Shown here: positions 19,659 to 41,300 of the stretch, one piece after another
Layout: each line of letters starts with the position of its first letter
Numbering within the stretch: position 1 is the stretch's first letter
Assembly (NCBI GenBank): GCA_017470055.1
Contig: JAFUFD010000085.1
Location: 1-57,002 of the forward strand
DNA from: Prevotella sp.
Lineage (GTDB): Bacteria; Bacteroidota; Bacteroidia; Bacteroidales; Bacteroidaceae
Direction of reading: 5' to 3'
Length of the DNA stretch: 57,002 nucleotides
Position numbers and translations under genes: made by a program
The notes under the pieces: generated by a model
Databases searched by the model: none
What the model was told of the DNA's origin: nothing
Seen by the model: only the letters and a program-made list of their open reading frames with translations

Positions 19659-19663
19659 GATGA

Positions 19664-20656: not shown

Positions 20657-20659
20657 GGG

Positions 20660-22694: not shown

Positions 22695-24254
22695 TTAATT
22701 GAAATAGACGTATAGTCCTATCATTACCACCGCCAAGGCAATCCATAGCCCAATGGCAAGTCTCGACTGGCTCTCATGTACGGGAGCCGGTATTTCGTAG
22801 ACGGTCTTGTCTTTGTCCGTCAGACTGATCACTACCATCGAGACAACAAGAATGACAAATAACTCAAACGACAATAGCATGAAGTGCGGCCAAGGGAACT
22901 GAAGCCATTCGGGCGGCCATAGATAGAGGATACCGACGGTCAGGCAGAAAATGGTACCAACGGTCAAGGCAAAGTTGGCGGCACGTGTCGTGGTGCGTTT
23001 CCAGAAAATACCAAGGACGAAAACTGCCGCCATCGGGGGAGCGATGAAGCCCAGAACACTCTGGAACACATTGAAGAGATTGAGCCCTTTGATGGCATCA
23101 ATGGCAATGGTGAGGACGATGGCAAGGGCGGCACCGATGATAGTAACCAAACGTCCCACAAGGTTAATCTCCCATTGTGGAGCACCAGGTTTGAAGTTCT
23201 TGACGTAGACATCCATGGTAAATACGGTGCTTAACGCATTGAGCGCAGAGCCTATCGTGGATACCAGACATGCCGTCAGCACGGCAAACACCAAGCCTAC
23301 CATTCCCACAGGAAACAGGTTCTCCACCATCGTCAGGTATGCCTCGTCGGGATTCTCCAGTGTGGGGAAGAGGGCAAAGCAGATAATACCTGGCAGGATA
23401 TACAGGGCGACATCCAGAATCTTCAACCATCCCGTGAAGTTAGTACCCAGTTGTCCCTCTCGTAAATCCTTAGCGGCAAGGACAGGTTGTACCATGCTCT
23501 GGTCAGTACACCAGAACCAGATGCCCATCACTGGGTAGCCGAGGATAATAGGTAACCAAGGGAATGCCTCGTCAGTGTTGGGCTTGAACATCACCCAATA
23601 GTCGGCAGGAACCTTGGCGACCAAGGCAGAGACACCTCCAACACGGTCAAGACCGATGATGACTAATGTAAGTGAAACGACAATCAATAATACCATCTGG
23701 TAGACATTGGTATAGGCGACAGCCTTCAGTCCTCCCAGCATCGTGAAGAAGGCGGAGATGATCAGCAAAACCAATGCTGACATCCACATGGGAATATCGA
23801 ATACCTGACGGATCAGGATACCTCCGGCAAAGAGTGTCAGGGCAAGCCAGGATATGATGATGGTGACAATGGTATACCAAGCGAGGATATTCCTCGTAGA
23901 CTGTCCGAAGCGCAATCCCATGAACTCAGGCAGTGTATGCACCTTGGCCCCTAAGTAACGGGGAGCAAAGACAAAGGCAAGCAGGGCAATGAACACAAAG
24001 GCATACCACGCATAGTTGCCGGAGACGATACCTGTCGTGAATCCCGCTGAGGCAGAAGCAATCAGCATGGAGGGACCGACATTCGTTCCCCACATGGAGA
24101 AACCGATATGGTGCCAGCGCAGGGAGTGCTCTGCGAGGAAAAGGGAACCCTCTTTCTTTCGTTTGCTACTTGCCCATACGCCGATGGCAAGTAGGATGAT
24201 GAAATAGATCGCCAGGATCATCCAGTCTAAGGAATGCATGTAATGTGTATTCAT
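22695..24254 (-). CDS. SSS-family sodium:solute symporter
   Basis: 519 residues with about 13-14 membrane segments, starting near LDWMILAIYFIILLAIGVWASS and ending in a final helix (LWIALAVVMIGLYVYF). The family signature region is visible: WGTNVGPSMLIASASAGFTTG (54-74) and TACLVSTIGSALNALSTVFTMD near 310-331, as in sugar SSS carriers. It imports a solute with Na+ across the inner membrane. The ATGA overlap with the GH31 gene upstream in the transcript suggests it brings in the GH31 substrate, perhaps a small alpha-linked disaccharide released from RG-II. The specific sugar is not known. Confidence 0.9.
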   Translation of the reverse strand: MNTHYMHSLDWMILAIYFIILLAIGVWASSKRKKEGSLFLAEHSLRWHHIGFSMWGTNVGPSMLIASASAGFTTGIVSGNYAWYAFVFIALLAFVFAPRYLGAKVHTLPEFMGLRFGQSTRNILAWYTIVTIIISWLALTLFAGGILIRQVFDIPMWMSALVLLIISAFFTMLGGLKAVAYTNVYQMVLLIVVSLTLVIIGLDRVGGVSALVAKVPADYWVMFKPNTDEAFPWLPIILGYPVMGIWFWCTDQSMVQPVLAAKDLREGQLGTNFTGWLKILDVALYILPGIICFALFPTLENPDEAYLTMVENLFPVGMVGLVFAVLTACLVSTIGSALNALSTVFTMDVYVKNFKPGAPQWEINLVGRLVTIIGAALAIVLTIAIDAIKGLNLFNVFQSVLGFIAPPMAAVFVLGIFWKRTTTRAANFALTVGTIFCLTVGILYLWPPEWLQFPWPHFMLLSFELFVILVVSMVVISLTDKDKTVYEIPAPVHESQSRLAIGLWIALAVVMIGLYVYFN

Positions 24255-26524
24255 AGGGTAATGCCTTTAAAGTTGTGTGTAATGGTGATATCAGTAGATT
24301 GTGAGAGATCCATATCGTCGGTGGAGTTGACATCATGCGGGTACGTCTTGATGACAGTGTCAGGACGAACAAAGACGGGCATCTGGTCGAGGGGCACCTC
24401 CACCTGATAGTACCAGCGACCGCCCTCCAGGCGCTCACCTGTCAGGAAGTTGACCCATGTTCCTTCGGGCAGGTAGATATCCCGACGGTTGTCTGCGTTC
24501 ATCACAGGGCATACCAGCAGTTCATTGCCGAAGTAGTACTCATCGTCGATATGCCATACCTGACGGTCGTGAGGATGGTGGAACAGCAATGCCTGAACGA
24601 GAGGAAGACCACTCTGGCAGGCAAGTTCAGACTGTTCTACGATATAGGGAAGCAGGCGATAGCGGAGTTTCCACCAACGCTTGACAATCGGGGCAATCTC
24701 TGGGTAATGCCAAGGCTCTCGCTTACAGGTGCCATGATAGCGCATATTGGAGGTGAACACTCCAAACTGGGTCCATCGCACATAGACTTGCTCATCAATG
24801 GGGGAGTTCATGAAGTCGGGCGTGGAGTGGAATCCAGGTACGTCATGACTCCAGAAAGCGAAGCCAGAGAGCCCTAAGTGGAGTCCGCCTTTGAGAGAGC
24901 CCGCCATACCAGCCCATGAACTCTCGCTGTCGCCACCCCAATGGAGAGGGTAACGCTGGCAGCCCGCCCACCCGGCACGTGCCCAGATAATACCGTCGCC
25001 AGTTACCTCACGGGTCACCTCATAGGCTGCTTTCTGGTAGAGCAGGGCATAGATGTTATTCAGTCTCTCTGGTGTCGACGCATGGTATTGGTGATCCATG
25101 TGGATATTCTCTCCGAAGTCGGTCTTGATACACTTCACCCCCATGTCCAGCAGCGGCTTCAGTAGAGTGTACTTATACCAGTCGGTTGCCTTGGGATATG
25201 TGAAGTCAATCGTTCCCGCATAGTCGAGGGCGGAGAAGTTGGAGGCTCCACCTGTTGATGTGTCCTCTTCCTTCGTCGGTTGACTGATATAATTGTTCTG
25301 CTTTGCCTCCTCCAACTGCTCGGCGCCTTGGGCGATATAAGGCAGTTGCCAGAGGGACACCTTGAAACCTTGCTCCTTCAGTCTGCTGATGAATGCCTTG
25401 GGGTCGGGGAAACGCTCAGGGTTGAATTTCCATTCGCAGAGCCAGTCTGTACGGAACCAGCCTGTATCGAGGTGAATGACATCACAGGGATAGTGCTCCT
25501 CTCGCAGACGGTGACAGATGTCCTCCACCTCATCAGCGGAGAAATAGGTCATACGACTCATCCAGATACCGAAACTCCAAAGGGGAGGCATGGCAGGAAA
25601 ACCCGTCAGCATACGATATCCTCTCAGAATCTCCTCCGGGTTCTGTCCCCCTATGAGGAAGACATCCAGCGTAGCACGGTCGCACATAAACTGCACACTC
25701 CTTGCGCTATGGTCAGCGAGGGATAACTTGCAGTAGTCGGAGGTGTGGTAAAAGACACCATACATGCGACTGGACAGGTAGAACGGGATGTTCTTATAGC
25801 AGCGACGGTTGTTGACACCCTGTCCGTCCTGGTTCTTCAACTGGAACGTCTGTCCGCTCAGGTCCATCTTACGGAACCGCTCGCCAGTACCCACAAAGTG
25901 CTCGTCAGCGTCACATCTGAAGGAGATGGTGGCTCGCTCAGGCTTTGGGGCTGTAACAGTGTCGCAACATAAGGAACAGAAACCGAGCGGCAGGGCATCA
26001 TAGCGGGGTGGTGAGAAATGGTCGTCGCTGAGGGCAACAGGCTTAGAGGTGTCACCATCAGGATAGAAAGTGATAAACGGTGCTGGTTGCGGAGCAGGCA
26101 GGAGGTCGCTCCAATGGTCGAGGCGAGGGGTTTCCAGATTAATGGTGGCGACTTTCTTGTCATTCGCTGCGACAATGTCGCAGTATACGGAACCATGGAG
26201 ATGGAGGGGCTGGCGCTTCACGGCTGGTGCCATCTGTAGCATCTCGTCATGATCCGTCATCTCGTCATCCGTCATCGTCGTAAACAAGCGGATGATGTTA
26301 GGCTCATAGGAACGGATGATGAGGTCATAGGTCTGCTGGGGAGTCTCTGTGTCAGGCTCCATATCCTCTTGATGTCTCTGCTTCTGGTAAGGGATGGTGA
26401 TGATGATATCCCCGTCACGCTCTACAACCTTTGTGGGCGCATAGGCTTTCCACAGGCTCTCGTCCCGCTGTAGGGTCGGGTCAAAGTCCATGAAGTCAAA
26501 AAGATAGTAGTTAGTTTGTTTCAT
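24251..26524 (-). CDS. GH31 glycoside hydrolase, cytoplasmic (alpha-xylosidase-like)
   Basis: 757 residues with no signal peptide (MKQTNYYLFDFMDF), so predicted cytoplasmic, unlike nearly all other hydrolases here. The GH31 barrel carries nucleophile Asp469 (IKTDFGENI) and acid/base Asp532 (HWGGDSESSW), with HLDTGWF at 351-357 and a beta-sandwich N-domain. The KTDFGE form is typical of alpha-xylosidases of the YicI group. RG-II chain A carries an alpha-xylose on fucose, so an imported Xyl-containing disaccharide is a plausible substrate. It lies between the beta-helix enzyme and the symporter, overlapping both by 4 bases. Confidence 0.8.
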   Translation of the reverse strand: MKQTNYYLFDFMDFDPTLQRDESLWKAYAPTKVVERDGDIIITIPYQKQRHQEDMEPDTETPQQTYDLIIRSYEPNIIRLFTTMTDDEMTDHDEMLQMAPAVKRQPLHLHGSVYCDIVAANDKKVATINLETPRLDHWSDLLPAPQPAPFITFYPDGDTSKPVALSDDHFSPPRYDALPLGFCSLCCDTVTAPKPERATISFRCDADEHFVGTGERFRKMDLSGQTFQLKNQDGQGVNNRRCYKNIPFYLSSRMYGVFYHTSDYCKLSLADHSARSVQFMCDRATLDVFLIGGQNPEEILRGYRMLTGFPAMPPLWSFGIWMSRMTYFSADEVEDICHRLREEHYPCDVIHLDTGWFRTDWLCEWKFNPERFPDPKAFISRLKEQGFKVSLWQLPYIAQGAEQLEEAKQNNYISQPTKEEDTSTGGASNFSALDYAGTIDFTYPKATDWYKYTLLKPLLDMGVKCIKTDFGENIHMDHQYHASTPERLNNIYALLYQKAAYEVTREVTGDGIIWARAGWAGCQRYPLHWGGDSESSWAGMAGSLKGGLHLGLSGFAFWSHDVPGFHSTPDFMNSPIDEQVYVRWTQFGVFTSNMRYHGTCKREPWHYPEIAPIVKRWWKLRYRLLPYIVEQSELACQSGLPLVQALLFHHPHDRQVWHIDDEYYFGNELLVCPVMNADNRRDIYLPEGTWVNFLTGERLEGGRWYYQVEVPLDQMPVFVRPDTVIKTYPHDVNSTDDMDLSQSTDITITHNFKGITL

Positions 26525-28005
26525 TGTTTGAATATGAGGTTAGGACCAGGGTGGTTGTCGCCAATCTCGTCACGACGAATCAGTCGGTCTTCTGTTTTGT
26601 TATTCTCTATGGTGAAGCCATCTGTCCGTGCATCGAGATAGATGCGGAAACCACGGTTGTTGGTAGCGTATGGGGCTGGATAGGGCTGGCTGATCTCATT
26701 ATCCCTGATGCTGGAATCCGGTTGGTTGGATAAGGTGTAGATGCCACCAGCATCGTATAGTTGACGGGCATAGTCGCTCACCTTATTATTGATAATGTGA
26801 TTATTCCGCATGCCTGTGTCAAGGGGTGTCCATCCCCAGCCGATGCAGATGCCACTGTAGTTGACGTGAGAAATATCATTTTGGGCTATGACGCAGTCAC
26901 GCACGTAGCCGCAACTGATGGCGACGGCTCCCCAGTCCTCGTTGGCGGCATTGTAAATGGTGTTATGCTTGATGAGCAAACGTTTCCATTGCGAGGCAAG
27001 GTCGTTATAGGGACGATGCACCTCACGAGGACTTTCTGCAAAAGAGCCTGCCATGATTGCCGTTCCACCGATGTCTTCGAATGTGCAGTTCACAATAGTG
27101 CCATGATTAACACTTTCAAGGTCGAGGGCAGTACTGCCCAAGTGCTGAAATCGACAGTTTTTAAAAAAGATTGTCTGGGCATTGCGAACAGTGACAGCAG
27201 CGGTGGGTCGTTCTATCCATGCTTGGTTCTCCAGTCCTTCATCCCAAGGCAGTCCAGGACTCTCCTTCAGTTTATAGGCATCAATAAGTGGGAAACCGCC
27301 TTGCAGGGTGACGTGTCCCTTATGTAACGGACGGTTCCAACAGGTATTTTCGAAGGTGGTTTCCTCGAATTTGACGTAGTCGGCACCGTCGACGATGACC
27401 AGTTGTTCCACTCCATCCCGCTGTTCTGTCGTTCTCAAGAGAAAGGAACTATTGCCCTTTTCCCCACCGATGACAGGCTGAGGCCAAGGGTGCTCAAACT
27501 CCAAGCGACTCTCAGGCTCCTTGAAAGAGACAATCGTCTGGTCGCCCCGCACCTTCATCTCTTTGACTCGAAGAATGGCCATCGCCCAACGCTGATGCAC
27601 TACCATTTCCAGATTCTTGGTATCCAGGACCTCCTTCGGGGGTGTGGGAATGGTGATGGTACGATTGGTAGTGTTGAAATCTATCATGCGCTCCATCCCT
27701 TCCTTGGGGAAGAGTTGCCTATGCCGTTGGCGTATGTCACCATAGAGCGTCCCTCCACGGATAGTGGTCCATGATGCGTTTTTCCCACTATCCTCAGGGC
27801 GCAGGAACAAAGGCTCGTTCATAAAGTGACGACCTTCGATGATGATGGTAATTCCCCACTCACATCGTGGGTCATTGGTACGTCGCCATTCACGTGCCTG
27901 TCGTAAGGCATCGTGAATACTCTCACCCTCCCTGACGACAATCTCACCTGCATGAGAGATATTGGCGATAAGTAATAGAAGAATACAGGTTAGTGTTTGT
28001 TTCAT
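26521..28005 (-). CDS. Secreted right-handed beta-helix enzyme (GH141-like)
   Basis: 494 residues with a signal peptide (1-19, ...NISHA). The fold is a parallel beta-helix: successive coils such as VTVRNAQTIFFKNCRFQ, LDLESVNHGTIVNCTFE, and GICIGWGWTPLDTGMRNN followed by LYDAGGIYTL. The GWGW and DAGGIY motifs are those I associate with GH141, whose RG-II member BT1002 is an alpha-L-fucosidase; related beta-helix hydrolases and lyases cannot be excluded. It is the first gene of a three-gene unit with GH31 and the symporter, divergent from the UroD methyltransferase gene. Confidence 0.6.
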   Translation of the reverse strand: MKQTLTCILLLLIANISHAGEIVVREGESIHDALRQAREWRRTNDPRCEWGITIIIEGRHFMNEPLFLRPEDSGKNASWTTIRGGTLYGDIRQRHRQLFPKEGMERMIDFNTTNRTITIPTPPKEVLDTKNLEMVVHQRWAMAILRVKEMKVRGDQTIVSFKEPESRLEFEHPWPQPVIGGEKGNSSFLLRTTEQRDGVEQLVIVDGADYVKFEETTFENTCWNRPLHKGHVTLQGGFPLIDAYKLKESPGLPWDEGLENQAWIERPTAAVTVRNAQTIFFKNCRFQHLGSTALDLESVNHGTIVNCTFEDIGGTAIMAGSFAESPREVHRPYNDLASQWKRLLIKHNTIYNAANEDWGAVAISCGYVRDCVIAQNDISHVNYSGICIGWGWTPLDTGMRNNHIINNKVSDYARQLYDAGGIYTLSNQPDSSIRDNEISQPYPAPYATNNRGFRIYLDARTDGFTIENNKTEDRLIRRDEIGDNHPGPNLIFKQ

Positions 28006-28095
28006 ATTTTAAAGACGTGAAGAACCTTGAAATGTCACCACTTTGGATAGTGACAAAGCGGTAGTTTTGTCGTCTTTAATGAAAAAAGGGAACAG
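28006..28095. promoter_or_regulatory. Divergent control region between beta-helix and methyltransferase operons
   Basis: TTAAAGACG (28009-28017) and CGTCTTTAA (28071-28079) form a perfect 9-bp inverted repeat around the 90-base gap, and a smaller GTCAC/GTGAC pair lies inside. TAGTTTTG at 28062-28069 fits a plus-strand -7 box; a TTTG at 28042 is spaced only 16 bases away, so the promoter call is weak. There is no room for a cobalamin riboswitch. Confidence 0.4.
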
Positions 28096-29106
28096 ATGAA
28101 GCAGAATATGAGACAATGGATAGCGGATGTCATCCAACGGAAGGAGGTCATGGCATTGCCTGTGATGACTCACCCTGGTATCGAGATGAATGGCAATACC
28201 GTGCGACAGGCTGTCAGCAACGGACGGGTTCACTATGAGGCTGTGCAGACCTTGGTCAATCGTTATCCTACAGTGGCTGCGGCTACTATCATGGACCTGA
28301 CGACAGAGGCTGAGGCTTTTGGTGCGGAGATTGCTTTCAGCGATATCGCGGTACCTGCCGTGGTAGGACATCCTTTGGTGGATGTGGCGACTATTGAGCG
28401 TCTGGAGGTTCCCTCTCTCTCGGCTGGTCGCATCCCTGCCTATCTGAAAGCAAATCTGCTTGCTGCCCGCCATATCACAGATCGTCCTGTCTTTGCAGGA
28501 TGTATCGGTCCATTCTCCCTTGCAGGTCGCCTGTATGATATGTCAGAGTTGATGATGCTTATCTATGAGAACCCTGACGCTTCCCATCAATTGCTCAGTA
28601 AGTGTACGATGTTCATCAAGAAATACTGTCAGGCTTTAAAGCAGACAGGAGTAGGAGGTGTCATGATGGCGGAGCCTGCCGCAGGACTAATGTCGGACAA
28701 GGACTGCCAGACGTTCTCCTCTGACTATGTGCGCTATATCGTGAATGAGGTGCAGTCTGACGACTTCCTGGTGATTCTCCATAACTGTGGTAATACGGGA
28801 CATTGTACTCGTGCGATGGTCAGCACAGGTGCGGCGGCATACCACTTCGGTAATAAGTGCCGCATGGAGGAAGTCATCCGTGACGTACCGCCTACTGCCC
28901 TTGCCATGGGTAATATCGACCCCGTGAGTGTTTTCAAGGATGGGATGCCCTCGCAGATGCACCAGACCGTGACAGACTTGTTGGAGAAGATGCGGGATTA
29001 TCCTAACTTCGTCCTCTCCAGCGGTTGTGATACACCACCGCATACGCCACAGCATAACGTGGATGCCTTCTTTGAGGCACTCAAAGAGTGGAATGAGCAA
29101 TCATGA
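28096..29106 (+). CDS. UroD-superfamily corrinoid methyltransferase (MtaA/MtbA/CmuA-like)
   Basis: 336 residues, no signal peptide, cytoplasmic. It has the uroporphyrinogen decarboxylase fold with the methyltransferase zinc motif: His229-x-Cys231 (ILHNCGNTG) and Cys311 (SSGCDTPPHTP). MtaA, MtbA and CmuA of this superfamily move methyl groups between a corrinoid protein and a small acceptor or donor. True HemE lacks this Cys pair, so haem synthesis is unlikely. It overlaps the activation-domain gene by ATGA, and the corrinoid fusion gene converges on this pair. Inferred role: methyl transfer onto or from the corrinoid partner, with an O-methyl sugar or methanol as possible donor. Confidence 0.8.
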   Translation: MKQNMRQWIADVIQRKEVMALPVMTHPGIEMNGNTVRQAVSNGRVHYEAVQTLVNRYPTVAAATIMDLTTEAEAFGAEIAFSDIAVPAVVGHPLVDVATIERLEVPSLSAGRIPAYLKANLLAARHITDRPVFAGCIGPFSLAGRLYDMSELMMLIYENPDASHQLLSKCTMFIKKYCQALKQTGVGGVMMAEPAAGLMSDKDCQTFSSDYVRYIVNEVQSDDFLVILHNCGNTGHCTRAMVSTGAAAYHFGNKCRMEEVIRDVPPTALAMGNIDPVSVFKDGMPSQMHQTVTDLLEKMRDYPNFVLSSGCDTPPHTPQHNVDAFFEALKEWNEQS

Positions 29107-29756
29107 CGGAGAAGACACTTGACTATGATACTTTAGGTATAACCCCTGCTGATCTCTATGAGCAGATGGGCTATCACGACGTGGAACCCGATGAGGCGAC
29201 ACGACGGGAGGCATTAGCCGTCATGGACGAGGTACGTCCTTGGCTGCGCCCCCGGTTCTGTTATCAAGTCGTAAAAGACCTGCCCGCCTTCGACATGGGT
29301 AAGATTATCCCTCGTCAGTTGCGTGGCGCAGAGGCTTATGCCCTCTTTGTCTGTACGAGTGGCACGGCGTATGAGGCATACCAGCAACGACTGAAGGACG
29401 AGGGGGATATGGTACGTGTATTCATTGCCGATGCCCTTGGCTCTGTCATTGCCGAGCATTGCGCCGACCAGATGGAGGTGAGTCTGCAAGAGAGTATCGA
29501 TAAGTTAGGTTGGCATCATACCAACCGTTTCTCTCCTGGCTATTGTGGCTGGCATGTGTCCCAACAGCAACTGCTCTTCCCTTTGTTCGAAGGACATACC
29601 TGTGGAGTCCGTCTGACAGACTCCTCCCTGATGGTACCCATCAAGTCTGTCAGTGGTATCATCGGACTGGGCAAGGATGTCCGCCATCTGGACTATACCT
29701 GTGGGCTCTGTGATTTCAAACAGTGTTTTAAGCGGAAACTACGTCCGACACACTGA
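29103..29756 (+). CDS. Stand-alone MetH activation-domain protein (corrinoid reactivator)
   Basis: 217 residues, cytoplasmic. The C-terminal half has the cobalamin-dependent methionine synthase activation signature: RFSPGYCGWHVSQQQLLFPL (about 140-159), GVRLTDSSLMVPIKSVSGIIGLG (167-189), and a Cys cluster CGLCDFKQC near the end. In MetH this domain binds S-adenosylmethionine and reductively methylates inactive Co(II). Here it is a separate protein, matching a corrinoid fusion that lacks the domain. It is coupled to the UroD-type gene by a 4-base overlap. The CxxC-x4-C end, absent from E. coli MetH as I remember it, could bind a metal or cluster. Confidence 0.85.
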   Translation: MTEKTLDYDTLGITPADLYEQMGYHDVEPDEATRREALAVMDEVRPWLRPRFCYQVVKDLPAFDMGKIIPRQLRGAEAYALFVCTSGTAYEAYQQRLKDEGDMVRVFIADALGSVIAEHCADQMEVSLQESIDKLGWHHTNRFSPGYCGWHVSQQQLLFPLFEGHTCGVRLTDSSLMVPIKSVSGIIGLGKDVRHLDYTCGLCDFKQCFKRKLRPTH

Positions 29757-29763
29757 TTGAGTC

Positions 29764-32580
29764 TTACAATTTCCCTAATAACTGTTTGGCGACAGTGACG
29801 GCGGAGTTAGCGTTGTCGCTATAACCATCGGCTCCTATCTCATCAGCGAAACCTTGAGTGACAGGAGCACCGCCTACCATTACTTTCACTTGGTTGCGGA
29901 TGCCAGCAGTATCCAAGGCATCAATGACCTCCTTCATATATCCCATCGTTGTGGTGAGCAGGGCACTCATACAAAGGATATCGGGTTGATTCTCCTTGAT
30001 AGCCTCGATGAAGGCGTCGGCAGAGACATCAATACCAATATTCACCACCTCAAAACCGCAGCCTTCCAGCATGGAGGCAACGAGGTTCTTGCCGATATCA
30101 TGCAGGTCACCTTTCACAGTGCCAATCACCACCTTCCCCAAAGACGTATTTGCCGTACCTGCCATCATCGGCTTCAACAGTTCGAGTGCCGCCTTCATAG
30201 CACGTCCTGCCATCAGCAACTGAGGCACGAAAGCCTTGCCGTCCTGAAAGCGTCTGCCCACCTCACTCATCGCACGAATCATCTGTCCGTTGATGAGGTC
30301 TTGCGGAGCGATGTTCTGGGCGATAGCGTCCCTTGTGGCTGCAGCGGCATCGTCACTCTTACCATCGAGGATCGCCTGATAGAGGCGTTCAGAGGGGGAT
30401 GATTGGGCAGGCTGGGCAGGTTGGGGCGGTTGGGGGGATTTGGGGGATTGAGCAATTTGGGTGATTTTGGGAGAACCGCTTTTGGGATTTAAAGGCGATA
30501 GATATACTCCAGGGACAGGCTCTACCGCCTGTGCCATCAGTCGGATATGTGCATCTGTCGTACCGCAGCATCCTCCGATGATGTTCAGGCAATGGTTTTC
30601 CAACAACTGCCATACGTCGCCCAACAGGCTCTCTGGTGTCTTGGTATATTGTCCTTTGGCATCGGGCATTCCAGCGTTAGGGTAGAGGCTTACCCTTGTT
30701 CCGTACTGGGACAGTTGACAGATCAGTGGAGTCATCTGCTGGATATCTGAGAGGCAGTTGACACCGATAGAGAAGAATTCCTTCTTCTCCTCATGGAGGA
30801 AATCAAGGATGCTCTGCCCCAGCATGTTATGACCATCAGGGGTAGAGACGGAGAAACTGAGCATGATGGGGAGGTCGGGTGCGATGTGTGTTGCCGCCTC
30901 GATGGCGATACGGGCATTCTCCACATCGAAGATGGTCTCGATGAGCAGTATGTCCACACCTCCTTCGGCAAGTGCTTTGATCTGTTCCTCGTAGGCTGTA
31001 CGTAGTTCTTCCTTGGACAAGGGAACACCAGAGGTGGCTACAGAGGTCGTACGACTGGTCGGACCAATGCTGCCTGCGACATAGCGTGGTTTCTCTGGTG
31101 TGGAATACCTCTCCGCCATCTCACGGGCTATCTTCACAGCGGCAAGATTGATGTCACGACAATAGTCCTGCATCCCATAGTCACCCATCGAGATGCGTTG
31201 GGCATTGAACGTGTTGGTCTCAATGATGTCAGCACCCGCCTCTAAGTATTTGCGGTGAATATCCCGAACGATGAAAGGACAGGTCAGCGACAGTACATCA
31301 TTACAACCTTTCAGGTCGTAGTCATGATGGGCGAAGCGTGACCCACGGAAGTCCTCCTCCCGCAGTTGGTATTGCTGAATCATCGTTCCCATCGCACCGT
31401 CGAGGACAAGGATACGGTCGGTAGGGAAGGCGGGTCTGTCATTCTTGGCAGTCTCAGTGGGGGATTCGATGAGTCGGATAATCTCTTTTACCTCCTCGTC
31501 CACCTCGTCATGACTTTGGTACTCCTCGATGATGCGCATTGCCTGTTCCACCTCTCGCTCGTTATGGAAGTCCATCTCCAGATGTACGCCATCACCACCA
31601 ATATTGTCGAGCAACGGACGTAACTCGTCGAGTGTCACCCAGCAAGCCATGATGCTCTTGCCGTGGGCAAGGATTTTCTTGTAGAGGTCATACCACTTGG
31701 GACTGCCTCCCTGTGGCTCGCCCACACCTGGAGTCCACTGGATAGCGTTCAACTCCTCAATCTCCAAGAGAGCGTCCAGATGATGCATGGCACCCACACC
31801 GTCCAGATGGTAGAGGGTATAGTCAATCTTCTGACACTGTTCACGGATAAATGGCTGTACGAAACGGCGATAGTCATCCACACTGATCATCGTAGAGATA
31901 TCACTCTGTAGTTTCGACATCTTGCCAGGAGCCCATGAGGAGAAATAGCAGAAAGCCATCTCGTCACCCTCACGGATGATATCGTAGAGTTCGTCGAACA
32001 CTTGGAAATAGATATCGTTGATCTGTTGCATCTGGTGCTCCAGTACCTCTGGTTGCATCACAGTGTCAAGCAACACCTTGTCAGTACCCTTGATGGCGGC
32101 AAGCACGTCGAGTCCTTCCATCAAGTCAGGCATGCCCACATAGTAGTGTCCCTGTGCCTTCTGCTTGCAAGCCTTTAACAGTTCCTTATGCAGCAGGTAG
32201 TTGGGATGGTTGGGGTCAAAGACGATATCATCTTTGTAGTGAGGGTCAGGATGAATCCAGATCGTATCCTCACCTCCCTCAAAGACACCACCAAGGATGG
32301 CGGCAAGGGAGCCTGGTCCCAGTTGGGTGTTAGCCACAGGCAGCATGTCAGCCATCAGTGACGAGTGTGCCACATACCAGTCGAGGTAGTCGGCACGCCA
32401 TTGCGGGTCGAACCATTTCTGGTTCAAGTCACGGGGGGCTGGTGGCATAGGGATGTCAGCATGAGGGGTAACCCCCTCTTGGAAGTGTTCCCACATATTC
32501 AGGATGATACCCTTGTGGCTCCACCAGTTGATATATCGTTTCTTTGTCTCCTCAAGATTCAGTTTCCAAGTATTCATCAT
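29764..32580 (-). CDS. UroD-like / homocysteine methyltransferase / corrinoid-protein fusion
   Basis: 938 residues, no signal peptide. Residues 1-365: UroD-superfamily domain (LYHLDGVGAMHHLDALL at 256-272; no HxC zinc motif seen). Residues 388-690: MetH-type homocysteine methyltransferase, VLDGAMGTMIQ at 392-402, with zinc ligands Cys609 (GVNC) and Cys671-Cys672 (GGCCGTT). Residues 700-730: Pro/Gln/Ser linker. Residues 731-938: corrinoid module with helical cap and Rossmann part, DLHDIG (His827 as lower cobalt ligand), SALLTTTM and GGAP. MetH's folate-binding and activation domains are absent. The ATGA overlap with DUF5703-GH78 makes it the last gene of the RG-II glycosidase operon. Inferred reaction: methyl from a non-folate donor via Co(I) to homocysteine, giving methionine. 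Confidence 0.85.
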   Translation of the reverse strand: MMNTWKLNLEETKKRYINWWSHKGIILNMWEHFQEGVTPHADIPMPPAPRDLNQKWFDPQWRADYLDWYVAHSSLMADMLPVANTQLGPGSLAAILGGVFEGGEDTIWIHPDPHYKDDIVFDPNHPNYLLHKELLKACKQKAQGHYYVGMPDLMEGLDVLAAIKGTDKVLLDTVMQPEVLEHQMQQINDIYFQVFDELYDIIREGDEMAFCYFSSWAPGKMSKLQSDISTMISVDDYRRFVQPFIREQCQKIDYTLYHLDGVGAMHHLDALLEIEELNAIQWTPGVGEPQGGSPKWYDLYKKILAHGKSIMACWVTLDELRPLLDNIGGDGVHLEMDFHNEREVEQAMRIIEEYQSHDEVDEEVKEIIRLIESPTETAKNDRPAFPTDRILVLDGAMGTMIQQYQLREEDFRGSRFAHHDYDLKGCNDVLSLTCPFIVRDIHRKYLEAGADIIETNTFNAQRISMGDYGMQDYCRDINLAAVKIAREMAERYSTPEKPRYVAGSIGPTSRTTSVATSGVPLSKEELRTAYEEQIKALAEGGVDILLIETIFDVENARIAIEAATHIAPDLPIMLSFSVSTPDGHNMLGQSILDFLHEEKKEFFSIGVNCLSDIQQMTPLICQLSQYGTRVSLYPNAGMPDAKGQYTKTPESLLGDVWQLLENHCLNIIGGCCGTTDAHIRLMAQAVEPVPGVYLSPLNPKSGSPKITQIAQSPKSPQPPQPAQPAQSSPSERLYQAILDGKSDDAAAATRDAIAQNIAPQDLINGQMIRAMSEVGRRFQDGKAFVPQLLMAGRAMKAALELLKPMMAGTANTSLGKVVIGTVKGDLHDIGKNLVASMLEGCGFEVVNIGIDVSADAFIEAIKENQPDILCMSALLTTTMGYMKEVIDALDTAGIRNQVKVMVGGAPVTQGFADEIGADGYSDNANSAVTVAKQLLGKL

Positions 32581-35500
32581 AATGTCAGTCTTTGATTTCT
32601 CAGTATGTGCTGTCCCTCGCCAACCACCGTTGTCTGTCCGTTATAGGGGAGTCGGATGGTTGCTTTCCTACCAGTGGGAATGTCCACCTTCAGCACAAAG
32701 GTATTGCCTTCAAAATGCCAGTCAACCTTTACGTCTTCCATCCGTCCTCGGCACCAGGTGAGGTCGCCCACGGGATGAGGGGCTATCGTGATATGGTCAC
32801 CCTCCCGCCAGATGCCTAAGAAATAAGGTATGAGCAGGTTGTTCAAGTGTCCCATCATGAAATGGTTCATGGAGGCACCGTGCTCTGGGTTCCATTGCTC
32901 CGTCAGCGTGGTATGTCCGAGTTTGATCTGATAGCCGTAGCCAGGTACGTCGTAGTGGTTCAGCATCTTGTAGAGCAGTTCCTGCTGTCCGTTGTGGATG
33001 AGGGCGTTAAACAGATAGCGGTTGCCTACGTCACCCGTTGTCAGACGGTCTCCATGGGCATGGATATCGTTTATCAGTTGCCCGAGCACCGCCTCACGGT
33101 CACCATCTGGTACCAGGTTCATCTCAAGGGCAATCGCCTGTGCACATTGACTGCCTGTGGCATACTGGTGGGTGGTAGGGTTGTAGAACTCCTTGATGAA
33201 CGCAGCCTTGATACTGTCTGCACGTGCCTCACCCATCAGGTGATTCCACCAATAGTAATGAGCCGTCGAGACAAGCGCCATGGGAGTGTTTTGGGCAAAT
33301 CCCGCACGCCTTGGTCCGTAGTCGTACCAGTCACCCAGTCCCTGACGAAGGATATAGCATGAGTCCTGCGTCGCCAGATAATCCACATAACACTTCATCT
33401 GTGGGCGATAGCGGGTGATAAGTTTATCGTCACCATAGAACGACTGATAGAGGAAGGGTAGGGCGATGAAAGCACCTCCCCATTCAGGTGACTCTAAGAA
33501 AGGAGGAGCCCATGAGCCCTCGAAGATCACGTAGTTAGGGGCAATCTCAGGCAAGGCGCCATGCGGGTATTGTGCGTCGGCGATGTTCTGCATGGTCTGC
33601 TCCATCATCGCACGACAGTCGTAATTAGCAAGGAGTCCCTCGCCGTTCAGCCAGTCTTGTTCCAACCAACCCAGTTTCTCACGATGGGGACAGTCCGTCC
33701 ATACTGCCTGCCAATTGGAGCGGATGGCACGGTCTATTAGGCGGTAGGCGTCGTTGAAGAGGGGATTGGAACACTCGAAGTCGCCCGTCTTTTGTGCAGA
33801 GTTATATACGAAGCATGACTGGATGTTCTTCAGCACGTCAAGATCTCCCTCTACTTGCATGTAGCGATAGCCATAATACGAGAAACGGGGATGCCATCTT
33901 TCTGGCTGTTGGCTGTCACCTTTTAATATATAAGTATAATAATGTGGGCGACCCGTTTGCTTCTGATTCACCAATCCGTCTTTTGTCAAGGTCTCGCCAG
34001 GAGTCAGTCTCAGCCATTGTCCCTGTTGTCCCTTGACGGTAATCTCTGGGAATCCTGCCAGGTTCTGTCCCATGTCGAGCACTAATACAGAGTCTTTCCT
34101 GATAGTATCCTTGACGGGATAGCGTTCCATGATTTTGACGGGCTCTGCCATCTGTTGGCGGAGGACACCCTTTGGAGCCTCTTGGATGACGACAGGGTGC
34201 CAGTTGGTAGCATTCTCCAAGCGAGCGTCATAGTCCTCACCGCCATAGATGCTGTTGAAGGTGACAGGTGATAATGCCCACTGCCATTGCCCGTCACTGA
34301 CGATATCCTCTGTCTTTCCGTCGAGATACTCAATGTGCATGCGGAACAGGAGGGTGGGAGGACCAAATGAGATTTTCATCTTGGCATAACGTCGTCCCTG
34401 TTCGTTGTAGAAACCATTGCCCAACAGGACTTGCACAGCAGTTGGTTTTTGGCTGAGGTAAGAGGTGACATCGTAAGTATTGTAGAACACTGTTTTGTCA
34501 TAGTCGCTCCATAGAGGTGCAAAGGATGCGTCACCCACCTTCTTACCGTTGATGGTGAGTTCATAGAAACCCAGTCCGACGATAGAGACGGTTGCCTTGA
34601 ATACTTTCCCTTTGAGGGGAATGTCTCTGCGTAGTACGATACTCCGTTGACTCAGGGTATCGACATTCTTCCATGCCTCTTTCACCAGAGGCTCTTTCAG
34701 TTTGGCACCAGTGTAGTTGCGTCCCTCAGGTAATCGTGACTCCTTCTTTGTGATGGCACCAATCCACAGAGCCTTCTCAGGGGCTTCTAAATCATCAGAG
34801 TAATCAACCCCATCGATGGCATAAGTGATTCTACCATCCTTTATTTCCGCATCGACACAACGTCGTCCAGAGAGATAGAGTCGGAAGCGACAGTTCCACT
34901 CACGAGACCATGCAGGGAAGAGGATAGGTTTATGATCGAGGTCTTCCTGTAGCAGCATCTCTTGCAGTCCAATCATACCAGCGCCCCCTCTGTTATGGTC
35001 AGGAGCCCAGTCGAAACCAGGGTCCCAGAAGGCGGGGAAACGATAGGGACCATTAGCCAACTTCTCCGTATTCAGACGTGTCGCCTCGTCGGTCATACCC
35101 AGACATGCCGCCCAGATATTGTCTTGTTTCCATCCTTTCGTACTACGCATCTCGATAGCATGCGGATCTTTGAGATAGGTATTGCGGGCGATATCAAGGT
35201 GTGGTCGTCCCATACCATAGATGCGCCAAGGGAAGACAGGGTATAGTTGCGGTGTCTCCGTGTTCTGTATCCGTTCCCAACTGATGGCAGGAGCGATACA
35301 CGTATCACCGTCAATCACATGAAGGGGGATGTCAGGGATGGTGGAAATATCCGTACCAACATCGACGAGATAGTTTTTCAGTGCCTGCAAGGCAGCGACG
35401 GTACAGGAGGGATTGCGTGCTATCTTATAAGTCTCACAGCCTGATCCAGGATAGATAACGAAGTTAGGATAGTGTTCGACGAAGAAACGCAAGGGCTCAG

Positions 35501-36926
35501 TGACGAGGACACGGTATTTCTCCAAAGTAGAGTCAGGGTACCATGGTAACATATCGAGGGACATTTTTCCGAACTCCAAGGCGGTGTCCCACTCATATTC
35601 CAGCCATTTGTTCTTCTCGACGCCCCAGTCGTCCTCCTCCTTGTGCTTACCATATTCGGCAGGATTGGGCAGTCCGAAGTTTTCTATCTGTTCGCTGAAA
35701 CATGCCCCTCCGTGTCCCCAGTGGTGGCGTGACCATGCGATGGCATTAGGAAGCATCCGCAGATAAGTGTCGAGTTGTGGCTTCAGTACCTCGTAGTCAC
35801 CACTTTTAAGCATAGGCCAATAAACCAGTCGTTGGTTCTGTGCCGTCATTGTACCGCCTCCCCATTTACGATAGTCTGGGGTGAACGTCATCGTGGAGTC
35901 AACATAGACGGGGTCAAAGGTGAAGAGTCCGCCATTGAATTTCGTAGGCCACTCACCATAGGCGTTGCATCCCAGCATATACCGCATCAATTCGTAGTTG
36001 CGGATCATCTGTGTCACCTCCCGTAGTTCGCAGTCACTCTGTATGTAACTCCGTTGCCAATACTTATGCCACCATGATGCGCTTCTCTCCTTTGATACCG
36101 TCGCATTGACAGACGAAGTAGGTACTTTACCAGTATATAATTGAATAGAGATAACTCCTTTCTTCATCTTCTTTCGTTGGAAGTTCCAACTGCGATAGTC
36201 TGTCGAGGCGTATACGCCCTCCGTGGTTCCTATGTACGAGAATCCGTCGGCCTGCATCTTTCCACCCATTCTTAAATTGCCGATGGGGTTATAGAGGTCG
36301 TCCTTGATAGCATCCAAACGCTCACGACTGACCGTGAAGTCGAACACTGTCTCTGCTTTATTCTGATGGGTAAAAGTCAACTGACTTCCTTTTGCTTGAA
36401 TGTTGTCTGCGAACGTCTTGCAGTCGGTAGGCAATACCCACTTATAGGAACACTGTTGACACTCCGCCTTCGTCACAGAACGGTCTTTGTATCGCCAACT
36501 CTCATAACTGAGCGTCGCTTGTTTTGCATGTGGCGATGACATCTCCACAAACACAACGGGGGAATAAACATCCACCCATATCTGGATATTGACATCCTTT
36601 CCCTTGATATAGACGGCACCCTCATCGAGGCATAGCCGTTGCTCGAAGTGTTGGTCCTTGAACGGTTCACCGTCTAAATGCAGTCTCCAGCGTCCAGCCT
36701 TCAACAGGGTGTTGTTCTCATCAAACCATCCGCTTTGGGCGATATAGAAGAGCACATCCCCGTTCTCCACCCATACGTTCATGCCGATGTCATGACCTCC
36801 ACAGGGCATCGACTCACTGGAGTTCCTGCTGGGAGTTGTCCAGACATAGTCTTTCGGCGTGTAGTCGCTTCCCTGAATGAGCGTCGAGAACGCTAATAAG
36901 ATGGATAGTAGTATGCTTCTTGTCAT
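32577..36926 (-). CDS. DUF5703 - GH78 alpha-L-rhamnosidase fusion
   Basis: 1449 residues with a signal peptide (1-19). Residues 22-720 match the DUF5703 group of (alpha/alpha)6-type hydrolases: YVWTTPSRNSSESMPCGGHDIGMNVWVENGDVLFYI at the start, GLFTFDPVY, HHWGHGGACFSEQ, and a late DWAPDHNRGGAGMIGLQEML. Residues 735-1449 are a full GH78: YELTINGKKVGD, VLDMGQNLAG, acid motif TDCPHREKLGWLEQDW and base motif TTLTEQWNPEHG. The GH78 half removes L-rhamnose; the DUF5703 half has no role known to me. Two large enzymes in one chain suggest sequential cuts on one side chain. Neighbours are SASA (5-base gap) and the methyltransferase fusion (4-base overlap). Confidence 0.85.
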   Translation of the reverse strand: MTRSILLSILLAFSTLIQGSDYTPKDYVWTTPSRNSSESMPCGGHDIGMNVWVENGDVLFYIAQSGWFDENNTLLKAGRWRLHLDGEPFKDQHFEQRLCLDEGAVYIKGKDVNIQIWVDVYSPVVFVEMSSPHAKQATLSYESWRYKDRSVTKAECQQCSYKWVLPTDCKTFADNIQAKGSQLTFTHQNKAETVFDFTVSRERLDAIKDDLYNPIGNLRMGGKMQADGFSYIGTTEGVYASTDYRSWNFQRKKMKKGVISIQLYTGKVPTSSVNATVSKERSASWWHKYWQRSYIQSDCELREVTQMIRNYELMRYMLGCNAYGEWPTKFNGGLFTFDPVYVDSTMTFTPDYRKWGGGTMTAQNQRLVYWPMLKSGDYEVLKPQLDTYLRMLPNAIAWSRHHWGHGGACFSEQIENFGLPNPAEYGKHKEEDDWGVEKNKWLEYEWDTALEFGKMSLDMLPWYPDSTLEKYRVLVTEPLRFFVEHYPNFVIYPGSGCETYKIARNPSCTVAALQALKNYLVDVGTDISTIPDIPLHVIDGDTCIAPAISWERIQNTETPQLYPVFPWRIYGMGRPHLDIARNTYLKDPHAIEMRSTKGWKQDNIWAACLGMTDEATRLNTEKLANGPYRFPAFWDPGFDWAPDHNRGGAGMIGLQEMLLQEDLDHKPILFPAWSREWNCRFRLYLSGRRCVDAEIKDGRITYAIDGVDYSDDLEAPEKALWIGAITKKESRLPEGRNYTGAKLKEPLVKEAWKNVDTLSQRSIVLRRDIPLKGKVFKATVSIVGLGFYELTINGKKVGDASFAPLWSDYDKTVFYNTYDVTSYLSQKPTAVQVLLGNGFYNEQGRRYAKMKISFGPPTLLFRMHIEYLDGKTEDIVSDGQWQWALSPVTFNSIYGGEDYDARLENATNWHPVVIQEAPKGVLRQQMAEPVKIMERYPVKDTIRKDSVLVLDMGQNLAGFPEITVKGQQGQWLRLTPGETLTKDGLVNQKQTGRPHYYTYILKGDSQQPERWHPRFSYYGYRYMQVEGDLDVLKNIQSCFVYNSAQKTGDFECSNPLFNDAYRLIDRAIRSNWQAVWTDCPHREKLGWLEQDWLNGEGLLANYDCRAMMEQTMQNIADAQYPHGALPEIAPNYVIFEGSWAPPFLESPEWGGAFIALPFLYQSFYGDDKLITRYRPQMKCYVDYLATQDSCYILRQGLGDWYDYGPRRAGFAQNTPMALVSTAHYYWWNHLMGEARADSIKAAFIKEFYNPTTHQYATGSQCAQAIALEMNLVPDGDREAVLGQLINDIHAHGDRLTTGDVGNRYLFNALIHNGQQELLYKMLNHYDVPGYGYQIKLGHTTLTEQWNPEHGASMNHFMMGHLNNLLIPYFLGIWREGDHITIAPHPVGDLTWCRGRMEDVKVDWHFEGNTFVLKVDIPTGRKATIRLPYNGQTTVVGEGQHILRNQRLTL

Positions 36927-38339: not shown

Positions 38340-41300
38340 TTATGGTTCTATTTTTAATTCAGGTTGTGCTAACAGACCGGCAGGCAATAGATGGTCACCT
38401 TTCGTGCGGTATTTGGCATTGGTCCAGATTCCCTCATAGGGTGCCTTTCCTTGGTCCATACCACGCAGGGCGTTGTGCCAGGTGTTGACGATCTCTATCT
38501 CCAAGGTATTCTTGCCTTTCTTCAAAGCCTTTGTCACCTCCACCTCGTAAGGCGCTGTCCAAGCAATACCGCAGTCGATGCCGTTTACCCATACATGGGC
38601 GATGTCCCTGATATCGGGGAATACCAGCCATGTACGCCCTTTAGACAGTCTCTTCTGCTTGAAAGTCGTGGTATACAAAGCATGTCCACTGAAATAGCGG
38701 ATCCGGTCGTCAGTATGCTTACTCCAGTCAAAGAGTTGCTGGTTGTCGAGGGTGATATTACTTTCTTTGAAAGTGATACGATAGGGAGTAGTGATTATTC
38801 CCACGCTGGGAATGTTTTTTCCCACGTTGGGAATATTTTTTTCCCACGTTGGGAATATTTTTTTCCCACATTGGGAATGTTTTTTCCCCACGTTGGGAAT
38901 AAATACGGAGCCATAAGCAGGCATCGTGAAGGTTACTTTCGTCCTACCGTTCTCCTTCGTATAAGCAACTTTATTCCACTCATCCGTAACGGGGTTATAG
39001 ACAGCAGGAATATGTCCTGTACAGCGGAAAGACGCTGTTATCTGACGCTCCTTGTCCTCTTGATTAGCGAGGAAATAGATGTCTTGGTCGTCAGTGACTC
39101 GATGGGTATAGGCGATTCCCTCTGGCAGGATGACATCAGGCTCCACCCCCTCAAGGGTCTCTGCCTGGTACGGTTTGTCGATAATCAGGACACCTTGTTG
39201 GCGTAATTGTGCTATTCGCTCTTGTGCCTCTTTGGAAATCAGACAGCCCTGCGGGATGACCAATGCCTTGTAGTTGAAAGACCGTGTCAGCAGTGCATCC
39301 TTATTCATGGAGTCATACTGGTAACCATGCAACGGATTAATCCAGTCTTTCAGATCAAGGATTCCTGCGGAATGGCGTACACCCACAGGACTTTCCTCCA
39401 TCGGCTGTCCAACATTGGCAAGTCGTTTTTGTTCGGAGGCGACACGCTCTGGACCGAAAAGTCCTGGCAGCATTGGCACGAGTCGGTCTGGTGTCTGTGC
39501 TCGGGAGGGCATTTCCTCCCCCGTATAGACAGCAATGTCGACGACAGGCTTACCTTTTTGCAGCATGGTCTGACAACGGGTGACATAATCAACAAATGCC
39601 TTTGCCTCTGGGAACCATGTCTGGTCACGCTGGAAGAATAGTCCGATGCCGTCGAGTGTCATACCAGGTTTTCGGTCGAGCCACGGGTTATGGGTGTTGA
39701 CATGGAAGAAAAGACGGTTCATACCCAGACAGAAGTTACGGTCGAGTAGGGGTTTGATGCTTGCTGGTGTCTCATCCCATACCCCACGAACCTCGGTAAA
39801 ACCCTCTGCTTGGATGACGTTCTTGCCATAGACATGTCCGCCATGAATGGCATCAAGCATATCATTGGGCTTGTCATGGGTAGGGGAATTCAACCAGAAC
39901 TCGCCCATTGGCAGGTCGACATACTTATAATGCTCCATACCGTCAGAGACCATGGTCGGGGCGACACTCTCAGAGGAAAGTTGTATTCCGTATTCCTTAG
40001 CCCGTAATGCAAGGGTTGTGAAGAACACCTCGTTAATCAGTTCGTTGATAGTGATGCGGATATCCCGTAACACCTGCTCTGCATGGTCCATCGGGATACC
40101 GGCATAGACGGGCAGGTAAGGAAGCAGGTCGTAGCCCCTTCGCTGCTGAAACTCATGGGCGAAAGTCTTGGACCAGTTCTGGGAACCACACTCCCAACTG
40201 TCGACATGCATATACTTAACGACGTTGGCATGCGGACGTCTCATGAAACGGTCAAACCACCCGTCAATCTGTTTGTTGACGGCACTGACGGAGAACTTGT
40301 CACATTCCAGTCCTTTTCCTCCGCCAGCCGTAGCATTGGTATGTCCTGTGGAGGTGTGTCCGAAACGGATGATACGCCAAAGACCTGTAGGAAGGACGGT
40401 CTGGGGAGTGACTTTAATAACCTTGGGAAGTGGTGATGTAGTCTGATAGGTAGCGGCTATTCTCCAGACAGAACCGTTCTTGGACTCATATTGGTCGATA
40501 CGTGGTTCTGCGGAGAGACGGAGATCCTTGATCTTCAGTACAGGCGACCATTTGGCGGCGTCAAGGTCCTCACTGCCTGGCTCTGTCCCTTCTGGGGTCC
40601 AATAGAAACGGAAATACCTTGCCGTGGTCTCAGGCAAGGAGTAGGTATAGTCTTGATCTGTGTTCTGCCAGCCCTGACGGGGAGGTGTCAACTGGCGGAT
40701 ATCATGGAAGGTGAGTCCGTCATCACTTGCCTGTACGAGCAGTCGCTGTGCCTGTACATTATTCCCACTGGGTATGATCTCCACACTTCTGACCGTCTGT
40801 GGCTGCTCATAGGAGACTTGGATATATCCTGCTTCTTTGGAGCGGAACGTCCCTTTCTCATCCCGTATGATAGTACCGGAAAACTGAGCGGCAGGTAATG
40901 GCTGCTCTGCCTGAATGGCGAAAGTGGCGATATCCTCGTAATATTCCTCATAGCCAATAACGGCACGAGGCACAGGTATCGTTGTCCCCTGACGGGTGAT
41001 GGTGACAAGGGTGTCGCTCCACACCACTTTCTGCATCGACTCTGCCGGGGTAATCCAAGGACCGCCAGCCAGTGCGAACCCGTCGCAGATATGAATACCC
41101 ATCTCCAAACCAAGGGAATCGGACTGTTGCATGGCATAGTCTATCATCTTCCAGAACGCTGGGGTGAGTTGCTGCGCCCTTCCTTGGTATTCGGGTCTTT
41201 CCTGTGTTCCACGGATAGGCATCAGGTAACAGCCGCCTAATCCTACGTCTTTCATCGCCTGCAAGTCTGCATGGATACCTTGCTCTGAAACGGCACCGTA

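Follow-up and report, generated by a model that had tools for sequence, protein, structure and literature searches.

A predicted corrinoid methyl-transfer pathway co-inherited with rhamnogalacturonan II degradation in Bacteroidaceae and Prevotellaceae

Corrinoid O-demethylases of the uroporphyrinogen decarboxylase (UroD) superfamily, such as MtvB, OdmB, VdmB, MtoB and CdmB, work as sets of a substrate methyltransferase (MT1), a corrinoid protein, a second methyltransferase (MT2) and a reactivation protein. They pass the methyl group to tetrahydrofolate, and they act on aryl methyl ethers or chloromethane, whereas the similarly composed gene set described here sits in glycan loci. We found it in a 57,002-nt stretch (the window) of Prevotella sp. 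(GCA_017470055.1, contig JAFUFD010000085.1, positions 1-57,002, forward strand), among genes for degrading the pectin rhamnogalacturonan II (RG-II). The corrinoid gene set is real and is inherited together in Bacteroidaceae and Prevotellaceae that degrade RG-II. We read it, with a probability of roughly 0.58, as a dedicated pathway for RG-II chain A in which 2-O-methyl-xylose is demethylated and the methyl group passed to homocysteine; the broader claim that the genes handle some RG-II methyl compound is likely. We know of no earlier corrinoid O-demethylase acting on a sugar ether rather than on an aryl ether or halide, and of no earlier link between glycan breakdown and methionine supply. If the reading is true, the set would be, to our knowledge, the first example of each.

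The core comprises three genes (Table 1): an MtaA-like protein of 336 residues (the UroD protein), a stand-alone activation protein, and a fusion of an N-terminal domain (N-domain), a homocysteine S-methyltransferase (HMT) domain and a corrinoid-binding domain. A check of open reading frames (ORFs) placed all three where a preliminary description of this DNA had them, and Pfam and NCBIfam searches bore out its HMT, corrinoid and MetH-type reactivation domains and its statement that no folate-binding domain is present. It was also right about the ATGA overlap (32577-32580) by which the stop of a DUF5703/rhamnosidase gene shares letters with the start of the fusion, but its span of 28096-32580 covered only part of the conserved unit, which extends from 22695 to 32580. 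The zinc-cysteine motifs GxNC and GGCCG are intact in 72/72 HMT fusions longer than 900 residues (the other two of the 74 fused HMT domains run off the locus end), and the domain is clearly MetH-like. All 77 fused corrinoid domains keep DxHDIG. This domain is nearest to the MtgC, MtbC and pyl_corrinoid models, matched over the model length with scores below the cut-offs, and with 43-44% identity to MttC structures it lies nearer to these than to MetH. In the UroD protein, H229-x-C231 and C311 are conserved in at least 97% of 50 sequences and presumably form a zinc thiolate site as in MtaA. Its best PDB match is 4ay7, a methylcobalamin:coenzyme M (CoM) methyltransferase, and PRK06252 and MtaA_CmuA are its top NCBIfam models, all scores being below curated cut-offs (131.7 on PRK06252; cut-off 244). 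The activation protein conserves R-x-S-P-G-Y across 49 sequences. Family-model tables (E <= 0.001) gave no pterin-binding, MtaB, MTTB or other methylamine-methyltransferase family in the three core proteins, and for that reason we judge methyltetrahydrofolate (methyl-THF), methanol, and methylamines or betaine unlikely as methyl donors.

Compared with the known O-demethylases, this set is partly fused to HMT and has, within the cluster, a MetH-type activation domain in place of their ATP-dependent RACE-type activator. The DxHxxG motif and MtaC/MtbC-type corrinoid protein typical of those systems are present, the motif in 77/77 fused domains, and the HMT domain and UroD protein would, judging by their sequences, provide the methyl-accepting MT2. 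HMT, corrinoid and activation domains are common to MetH as well, but the present set has no pterin domain, a separate activation gene, an extra N-domain and a corrinoid domain nearer the substrate-methyltransferase type. The URO-D Pfam domain and the H-x-C...C site are features that the UroD protein shares with the CoM methyltransferases MtaA, MtbA and MtsA and with MtaA-like proteins. CmuA carries a UroD-type domain followed by a corrinoid domain on one chain, an order that resembles the Bacteroides form of the present protein (N-domain then corrinoid domain); CmuA differs in its substrate and lacks HMT, and its MtaA_CmuA model is not matched by the N-domain. Mlp clusters combine three Mlp proteins with RACE (PMC10418091), whereas here the partners are the activation domain, GH31, GH141 and a sodium:solute symporter (SSF). 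The core methionine synthases MesA-MesD methylate homocysteine without folate, the methyl group probably coming from corrinoid proteins in MesA-C, but they are MetE-related (PMC7857596); the acceptor domain here is of the MetH type, and the chain that holds it also has its own corrinoid protein and a putative demethylase.

Evidence for a functional unit tied to RG-II comes from the window's family, in which 14 of 301 genomes have the N-domain, and a GH31 ortholog (E <= 1e-150) was found in exactly those 14 (Fisher 2e-24; the genomes are related, spanning four genera, and the value should not be read as one for independent samples). As a marker of RG-II degradation we used a match above cut-off to the BT_1020 model, which 29/301 genomes have (G123 and G218 fell below the cut-off and were excluded from the positive set); it is present in 14/14 N-domain genomes against 15/287 others (Fisher 2e-16). 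The UroD protein (E <= 1e-20), the activation protein and the SSF symporter (E <= 1e-100) each occur in 14/14 N-domain genomes and in 0/15 marker genomes without the N-domain. Most of the 14 have their UroD and activation genes on a different contig from the N-domain or at a distance from it; as co-occurrence persists where genes are unlinked, we reject a chance neighbourhood. SSF and GH31 adjoin the N-domain in all 13 genomes besides the window's own, while the UroD and activation genes fall inside the stretch examined in 4 of these. A corrinoid domain accompanies the N-domain in 14/14 genomes, 12 of them having the two fused and G109 and G077 having them on adjoining genes. Each of the 14 has two or more GH141_M matches (the second in G036 is weak and distant); among the 15 marker genomes without the N-domain only G257 has two, the second below the cut-off.

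Table 1. Coordinates of the core genes, their conserved neighbours and RG-II context in the window.
Feature	Position	Strand	Support
MtaA-like URO-D protein, 336 aa, candidate MT2 (methyl-corrinoid:thiol methyltransferase)	28096..29106	+	PF01208 E 5e-55
Stand-alone MetH-type activation (reactivation) domain	29103..29756	+	PF02965 (Met_synt_B12) E 5e-13
Whole fusion gene, 938 aa, no pterin-binding domain	29764..32580	-	Pfam, ORF list
N-domain of fusion, residues 1-360, candidate MT1 sugar O-demethylase	31501..32580	-	Fold match, co-occurrence
HMT domain, residues 391-686	30523..31410	-	PF02574 (S-methyl_trans) E 3e-85
Corrinoid-binding domain, residues 731-928	29797..30390	-	PF02310 (B12-binding) 9e-30, PF02607 (B12-binding_2) 7e-23
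SSF sodium:solute symporter, candidate importer	22695..24254	-	PF00474
GH31, candidate cytoplasmic alpha-xylosidase	24251..26524	-	PF01055; PDB 5f7c, then YicI
GH141-like protein, signal-peptide-like N-terminus	26521..28005	-	PF21231 (GH141_M), 5mqp E 2e-94
DUF5703 + rhamnosidase-type protein, directly upstream of fusion	32577..36926	-	PF18961, PF17389
BT_1020-like RG-II enzyme (context)	2585..6739	+	PF24067 E 8e-102
Apiosidase-like protein (RG-II context)	10406..11869	+	PF13204 E 4e-112
GH106 rhamnosidase (context)	38340..41396	-	PF17132

A wider sample consisted of the best 80 of 214 relatives from a scan of genome contigs, a choice that over-represents near kin of the window. By identity thresholds of our own choosing, GH31 is present in 49 of the 80 loci, GH141 in 50, SSF in 45, the UroD protein in 50 and the activation protein in 49; one locus (L086) was scored as a miss after the ORF filter let an overlapping ORF displace its N-domain. 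The corrinoid domain is fused in 77/79 scored loci, the other two running off the locus end. At least one of GH31, GH141 and SSF is present in 53/80 loci, and RG-II-type genes, these three included, in 34/38 loci of 21 kb. The preliminary description had named homologues lying mostly outside RG-II or methylated-glycan loci as an outcome that would count against it; instead, besides the marker in 14/14 genomes, 59/80 loci carry GH141, GH31, SSF or other RG-II-type genes within 10 kb.

The GH31 protein resembles PDB entry 5f7c along its full length, with YicI, which we take to be an alpha-xylosidase, next. In alignment it has T-G where YicI has C307-F308, and it does not carry the Ile-Asp that alpha-glucosidases presumably have at this place. 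The protein is a candidate cytoplasmic alpha-xylosidase. Judged by eye in the window and 12 loci, the start of GH31 has no signal-like stretch and GH141 has one at or near its start, an arrangement that would bring the cut sugar to lie beside the cytoplasmic methyltransferase. The window's GH141 scores 120 bits on PF21231, and its sole PDB match is BT_1002 (5mqp). It is short, at 494 residues with GH141_M partial (29-131 of 156 positions), and many other loci have a protein of about 600 residues. BT_1002 is endo-acting and frees the disaccharide 2-O-methyl-D-xylose-alpha-1,3-L-fucose from RG-II chain A (PMC10154630).

In the N-domain part of the fusion, residues 1-364 match no Pfam family at E <= 10 except for one chance match, and no PDB sequence below E 0.7. 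A phylum-wide search for distant kin yielded 3/345 genomes, namely the window's own and two with partial matches of 20-23 bits. An AlphaFold model of the domain (pLDDT 66.6, pTM 0.69; 22 close homologues) gave 1278 PDB fold matches, of which the 11 at E <= 0.001 are all UROD (TM 0.42-0.45); as far as listed these are the wild type and mutants of one protein, human UROD, so we count them as a single match. A second model, of the Phocaeicola vulgatus protein with N-domain and corrinoid domain, reached pLDDT 65.0, and the 50 matches listed for it are corrinoid-binding proteins, including MetH, MttC and a methylamine corrinoid protein. The preliminary description had spoken of two UroD-superfamily domains; this holds for the 336-residue protein, while UroD kinship of the N-domain is likely from the fold match, and neither a Pfam scan nor hhalign detects similarity to the known O-demethylases, whose MT1 is of the UroD fold. 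In our side-by-side placement, the N-domain conserves H258-x-D260 where the UroD protein has H-x-C, and it seemingly lacks the H-x-C...C site. CdmB and the Moorella O-demethylase are UroD-type MT1 enzymes that work without zinc (PMC13222342). Given this H-x-D and these zinc-free precedents, we tentatively assign the MT1 role to the N-domain and the MT2 role to the UroD protein.

From the gene content, the motifs, the co-inheritance, the restriction to RG-II degraders in the genomes searched and the signal-like starts, we infer a substrate for import, an activity for GH31, a methyl donor, an acceptor and a direction for each transfer. In the periplasm, GH141 would release 2-O-methyl-D-xylose-alpha-1,3-L-fucose, a step published for the homologue BT_1002 (PMC10154630). 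The SSF symporter would import the disaccharide, and GH31 would split it in the cytoplasm into L-fucose and 2-O-methyl-D-xylose. The N-domain may then transfer the ether methyl group to Co(I) on the corrinoid domain, leaving D-xylose, and the HMT domain may pass it from CH3-Co(III) to homocysteine, giving methionine. The UroD protein would be a second, more widespread MT2, performing the same step (or using another thiol) where HMT is not fused, and the activation protein would re-methylate Co(II) using S-adenosylmethionine. Exported GH141, import, cytoplasmic GH31 and cytoplasmic demethylase would thus form one line of flow. The preliminary description had proposed sugar O-demethylation, or use of methanol, delivering methyl to homocysteine; a corrinoid methyl-transfer set with a homocysteine acceptor domain and a tie to RG-II survives scrutiny, but the acceptor domain is not general, and as methyl source the context favours chain A 2-O-methyl-xylose, taken in as the disaccharide, over methanol or 2-O-methyl-fucose. 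If so, the linked genes of gut and rumen RG-II digesters look able to demethylate a rare pectin sugar through vitamin B12 and feed methionine, and the vitamin would gain a use in pectin digestion.

The position of HMT bears on where the methyl group would go. HMT lies between N-domain and corrinoid domain in Prevotellaceae loci and is absent in Phocaeicola vulgatus ATCC 8482, P. sartorii, two Bacteroides loci and some other genomes. Six of the 14 genomes have the HMT fusion, six a protein of N-domain and corrinoid domain, and two (G109, G077) two separate genes. On a tree of 90 rows, which leaves out L086 and three genomes (G122, G206, G293) from the same contigs as L087, L108 and L095, the presence of HMT requires two changes, readable as one gain plus one loss in L102; bootstrap support did not settle this. 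All five HMT-less loci among the 80 have the UroD and activation genes near, which makes the UroD protein a candidate general MT2 and HMT, on sequence grounds, a candidate added route dedicated to methionine. In G206 and G291, of the same genus as the window, the fusion is the only HMT found. MetE (PF01717) is present in 2/14 genomes (G023, G049), and MetA (PF04204) in 14/14. Since G206 and G291 have no other HMT or MetE match and keep MetA, the fusion may be their sole methionine synthase; as both are draft genomes, 99% complete, a gene may have been missed. The window genome's other HMT/corrinoid frame (G000:C8:101835-104348) is 918 residues long, most MetH-like frames being 915-949, and we assume it is too short for a four-module MetH.

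The gut bacterium Bacteroides thetaiotaomicron offers a point of comparison. The first 197 residues of 5f7c, which we take to be BT_0339, are 98.5% identical to the GH31 of an uncultured Bacteroides sp. (L114), where the gene order is GH141, GH31, N-domain-corrinoid, SSF, activation, UroD. BT_0338 has been named GH141 (PMC8264420), BT_0339 alpha-xylosidase (PMC10434189), and BT_0340, BT_0342 and BT_0343 are listed as 'Mta' B12 proteins of the methylamine/trimethylamine type (PMC8941943). As these names fit the L114 order, B. thetaiotaomicron has, by annotation and synteny, the cluster BT_0338-0343. Co-culture with A. muciniphila raised BT_0338 together with BT_1002 and BT_0984, which is weak evidence because 93 genes of 40 polysaccharide utilization loci rose there, a response the authors read as mucin-directed. 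In the portions of the open literature available, no RG-II role is assigned to BT_0338-0343, and the open-literature matches listed include no description of such a pathway, subscription papers falling mostly outside this scope, so that absence from print is not established; the preliminary description's statement that no such system was known is qualified by the existing 'Mta' listing. The chain A reading, if true, would give BT_0338-0343 a directly testable function in a model gut bacterium.

Several observations weigh against the chain A pathway. B. thetaiotaomicron is reported to cleave all RG-II linkages except that in 2-O-methyl-D-xylose-alpha-1,3-L-fucose and to accumulate this disaccharide (PMC7939467), so that under those conditions its cassette would be silent, inactive or otherwise purposed, and of five known B12-protein systems the Mta proteins were the one missed by a B12 probe (PMC8941943). 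HMT is missing in 8/14 genomes and in 12/90 tree rows, where methionine is consequently not an evident product, and G109 (88% complete, no fused HMT) has neither a MetE match nor a MetH-like HMT, its only HMT match being at 32%. GH141 is near the N-domain in only 10/13 relatives, and the scheme requires a second GH141, yet most of the 14 genomes own another. The UroD kinship of the N-domain, likely as we hold it to be, draws on one modest fold match: the 50 fold matches listed for the second model include no UROD, and hhalign of the N-domain against the UroD-protein family gave a probability of 0.4%, both profiles being very shallow. Finally, the scored genes are all missing from 21/80 loci, of which 17 fall short of 21 kb (the full-length ones are L059, L064, L077 and L091), and in L051, L053 and L059 the genes adjoin an acid-sugar (galactonate-type) transporter with threonate-kinase-like and KCE-like genes (those of L051 were scanned), which is a different catabolic context. 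A bolder version, in which the cassette is the missing route for the linkage that B. thetaiotaomicron reportedly leaves, importing the disaccharide, splitting it in the cytoplasm and turning its methyl ether into methionine, the pectin sugar being the sole methyl source for methionine in some Prevotella, we hold only tentatively; it would account for cleavage of the one RG-II bond still left intact.

Other readings place the same genes differently. The machine might act on another RG-II methyl ether, chiefly chain B 2-O-methyl-L-fucose, which GH139 releases, while GH31 and GH141 would cut a neighbouring linkage. That sugar is absent from other plant wall glycans (PMC12282258) and is labelled in a spent-medium figure for B. 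thetaiotaomicron, GH141 members include a fucosidase (PMC10154630), and a fucI-type gene lies within 10 kb in seven loci, one of them model-checked. The invariant partner, however, is a GH31 related to YicI after 5f7c, methyl-xylose being the alpha-xyloside of RG-II, and no GH139 appeared in the conserved neighbourhood (no dedicated GH139 model search was made); we regard this alternative as rather unlikely. If the donor were instead some small free methyl compound (methanol released from methyl esters of pectin, methylamines, betaine or methylthiols) and the genes merely travelled with those for RG-II, this would suit the 'Mta' listing of BT_0340, BT_0342 and BT_0343 (PMC8941943), the ties of MtaA-like proteins elsewhere to methyl-sulfur and selenium metabolism (PMC10418091), and the methanol by whose release the RG-II esterase BT1017 is assayed (PMC7939467). 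This alternative is unlikely: the three proteins have no MtaB, MTTB or related substrate-methyltransferase family, and the invariant GH31 and SSF partners would go unexplained.

It is quite improbable that the N-domain instead binds or modifies a sugar, for example as a UroD/TIM-barrel decarboxylase or lyase, while the corrinoid parts serve another purpose; its lack of a sequence link to known methyltransferases would fit, but a methyltransferase-type corrinoid domain accompanies it throughout the 14 genomes and the scored loci. We consider it very improbable that the fusion serves as a variant methionine synthase or as a backup MetH, supplied with methyl from methyl-THF by another protein, and demethylates no sugar. 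The MetH-like HMT domain and the shortage of other methionine synthases in G206 and G291 are what such an enzyme would predict; the absent pterin domain, the MttC-like corrinoid domain, the confinement of the N-domain to RG-II-marker genomes among the 301 and the lack of HMT in most of its carriers are not.

The neighbourhood of the core adds further detail. The window and the RG-II loci of B. thetaiotaomicron have GH141, GH78, GH106, apiosidase-like and BT_1020-like enzymes in common. Among the 80 loci, L077 is one that carries a fucI gene, and an aldo-keto reductase (AKR) resembling L-galactose dehydrogenase, an amidohydrolase and a Zn-dehydrogenase lie near in ten; the AKR match to PDB is that of L111, and the amidohydrolase has no PDB match. 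We had first read the AKR as an L-fucose enzyme, but its PDB relatives are L-galactose dehydrogenases; L-galactose is a chain A sugar too. L111 has a gene, truncated where the locus stops, that aligns with half of the model for aceric acid hydrolase. The sugars of RG-II include fucose, L-galactose and aceric acid (PMC7939467). Pectate lyases lie directly upstream of the fusion in L091 (2917-9988), along with an FGGY kinase and a transketolase split into two halves. Reading that kinase as an apulose kinase proved weak, as it scores 607.9 against the glycerol kinase subfamily cut-off of 498, though the gene set is reminiscent of apiose catabolism.

Rfam gave 0 matches at gathering score in the window and four loci. 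In L051, L053 and L059 we also read an Asp/Glu-racemase-like gene; fusion, activation and UroD genes are present there, and GH31 and GH141 are not. L102, labelled Paenibacillus, holds a Bacteroidales-type cassette with an 88% identical N-domain and is probably a mis-binned contig. Two family 2 glycosyltransferases and a protein without Pfam match occupy 18663-22189 of the window, between two RG-II gene blocks. Polysaccharide synthesis genes adjoin the fusion in L057, and in L071 and L075 its neighbour is, by our reading of the letters, arabinofuranosidase-like.

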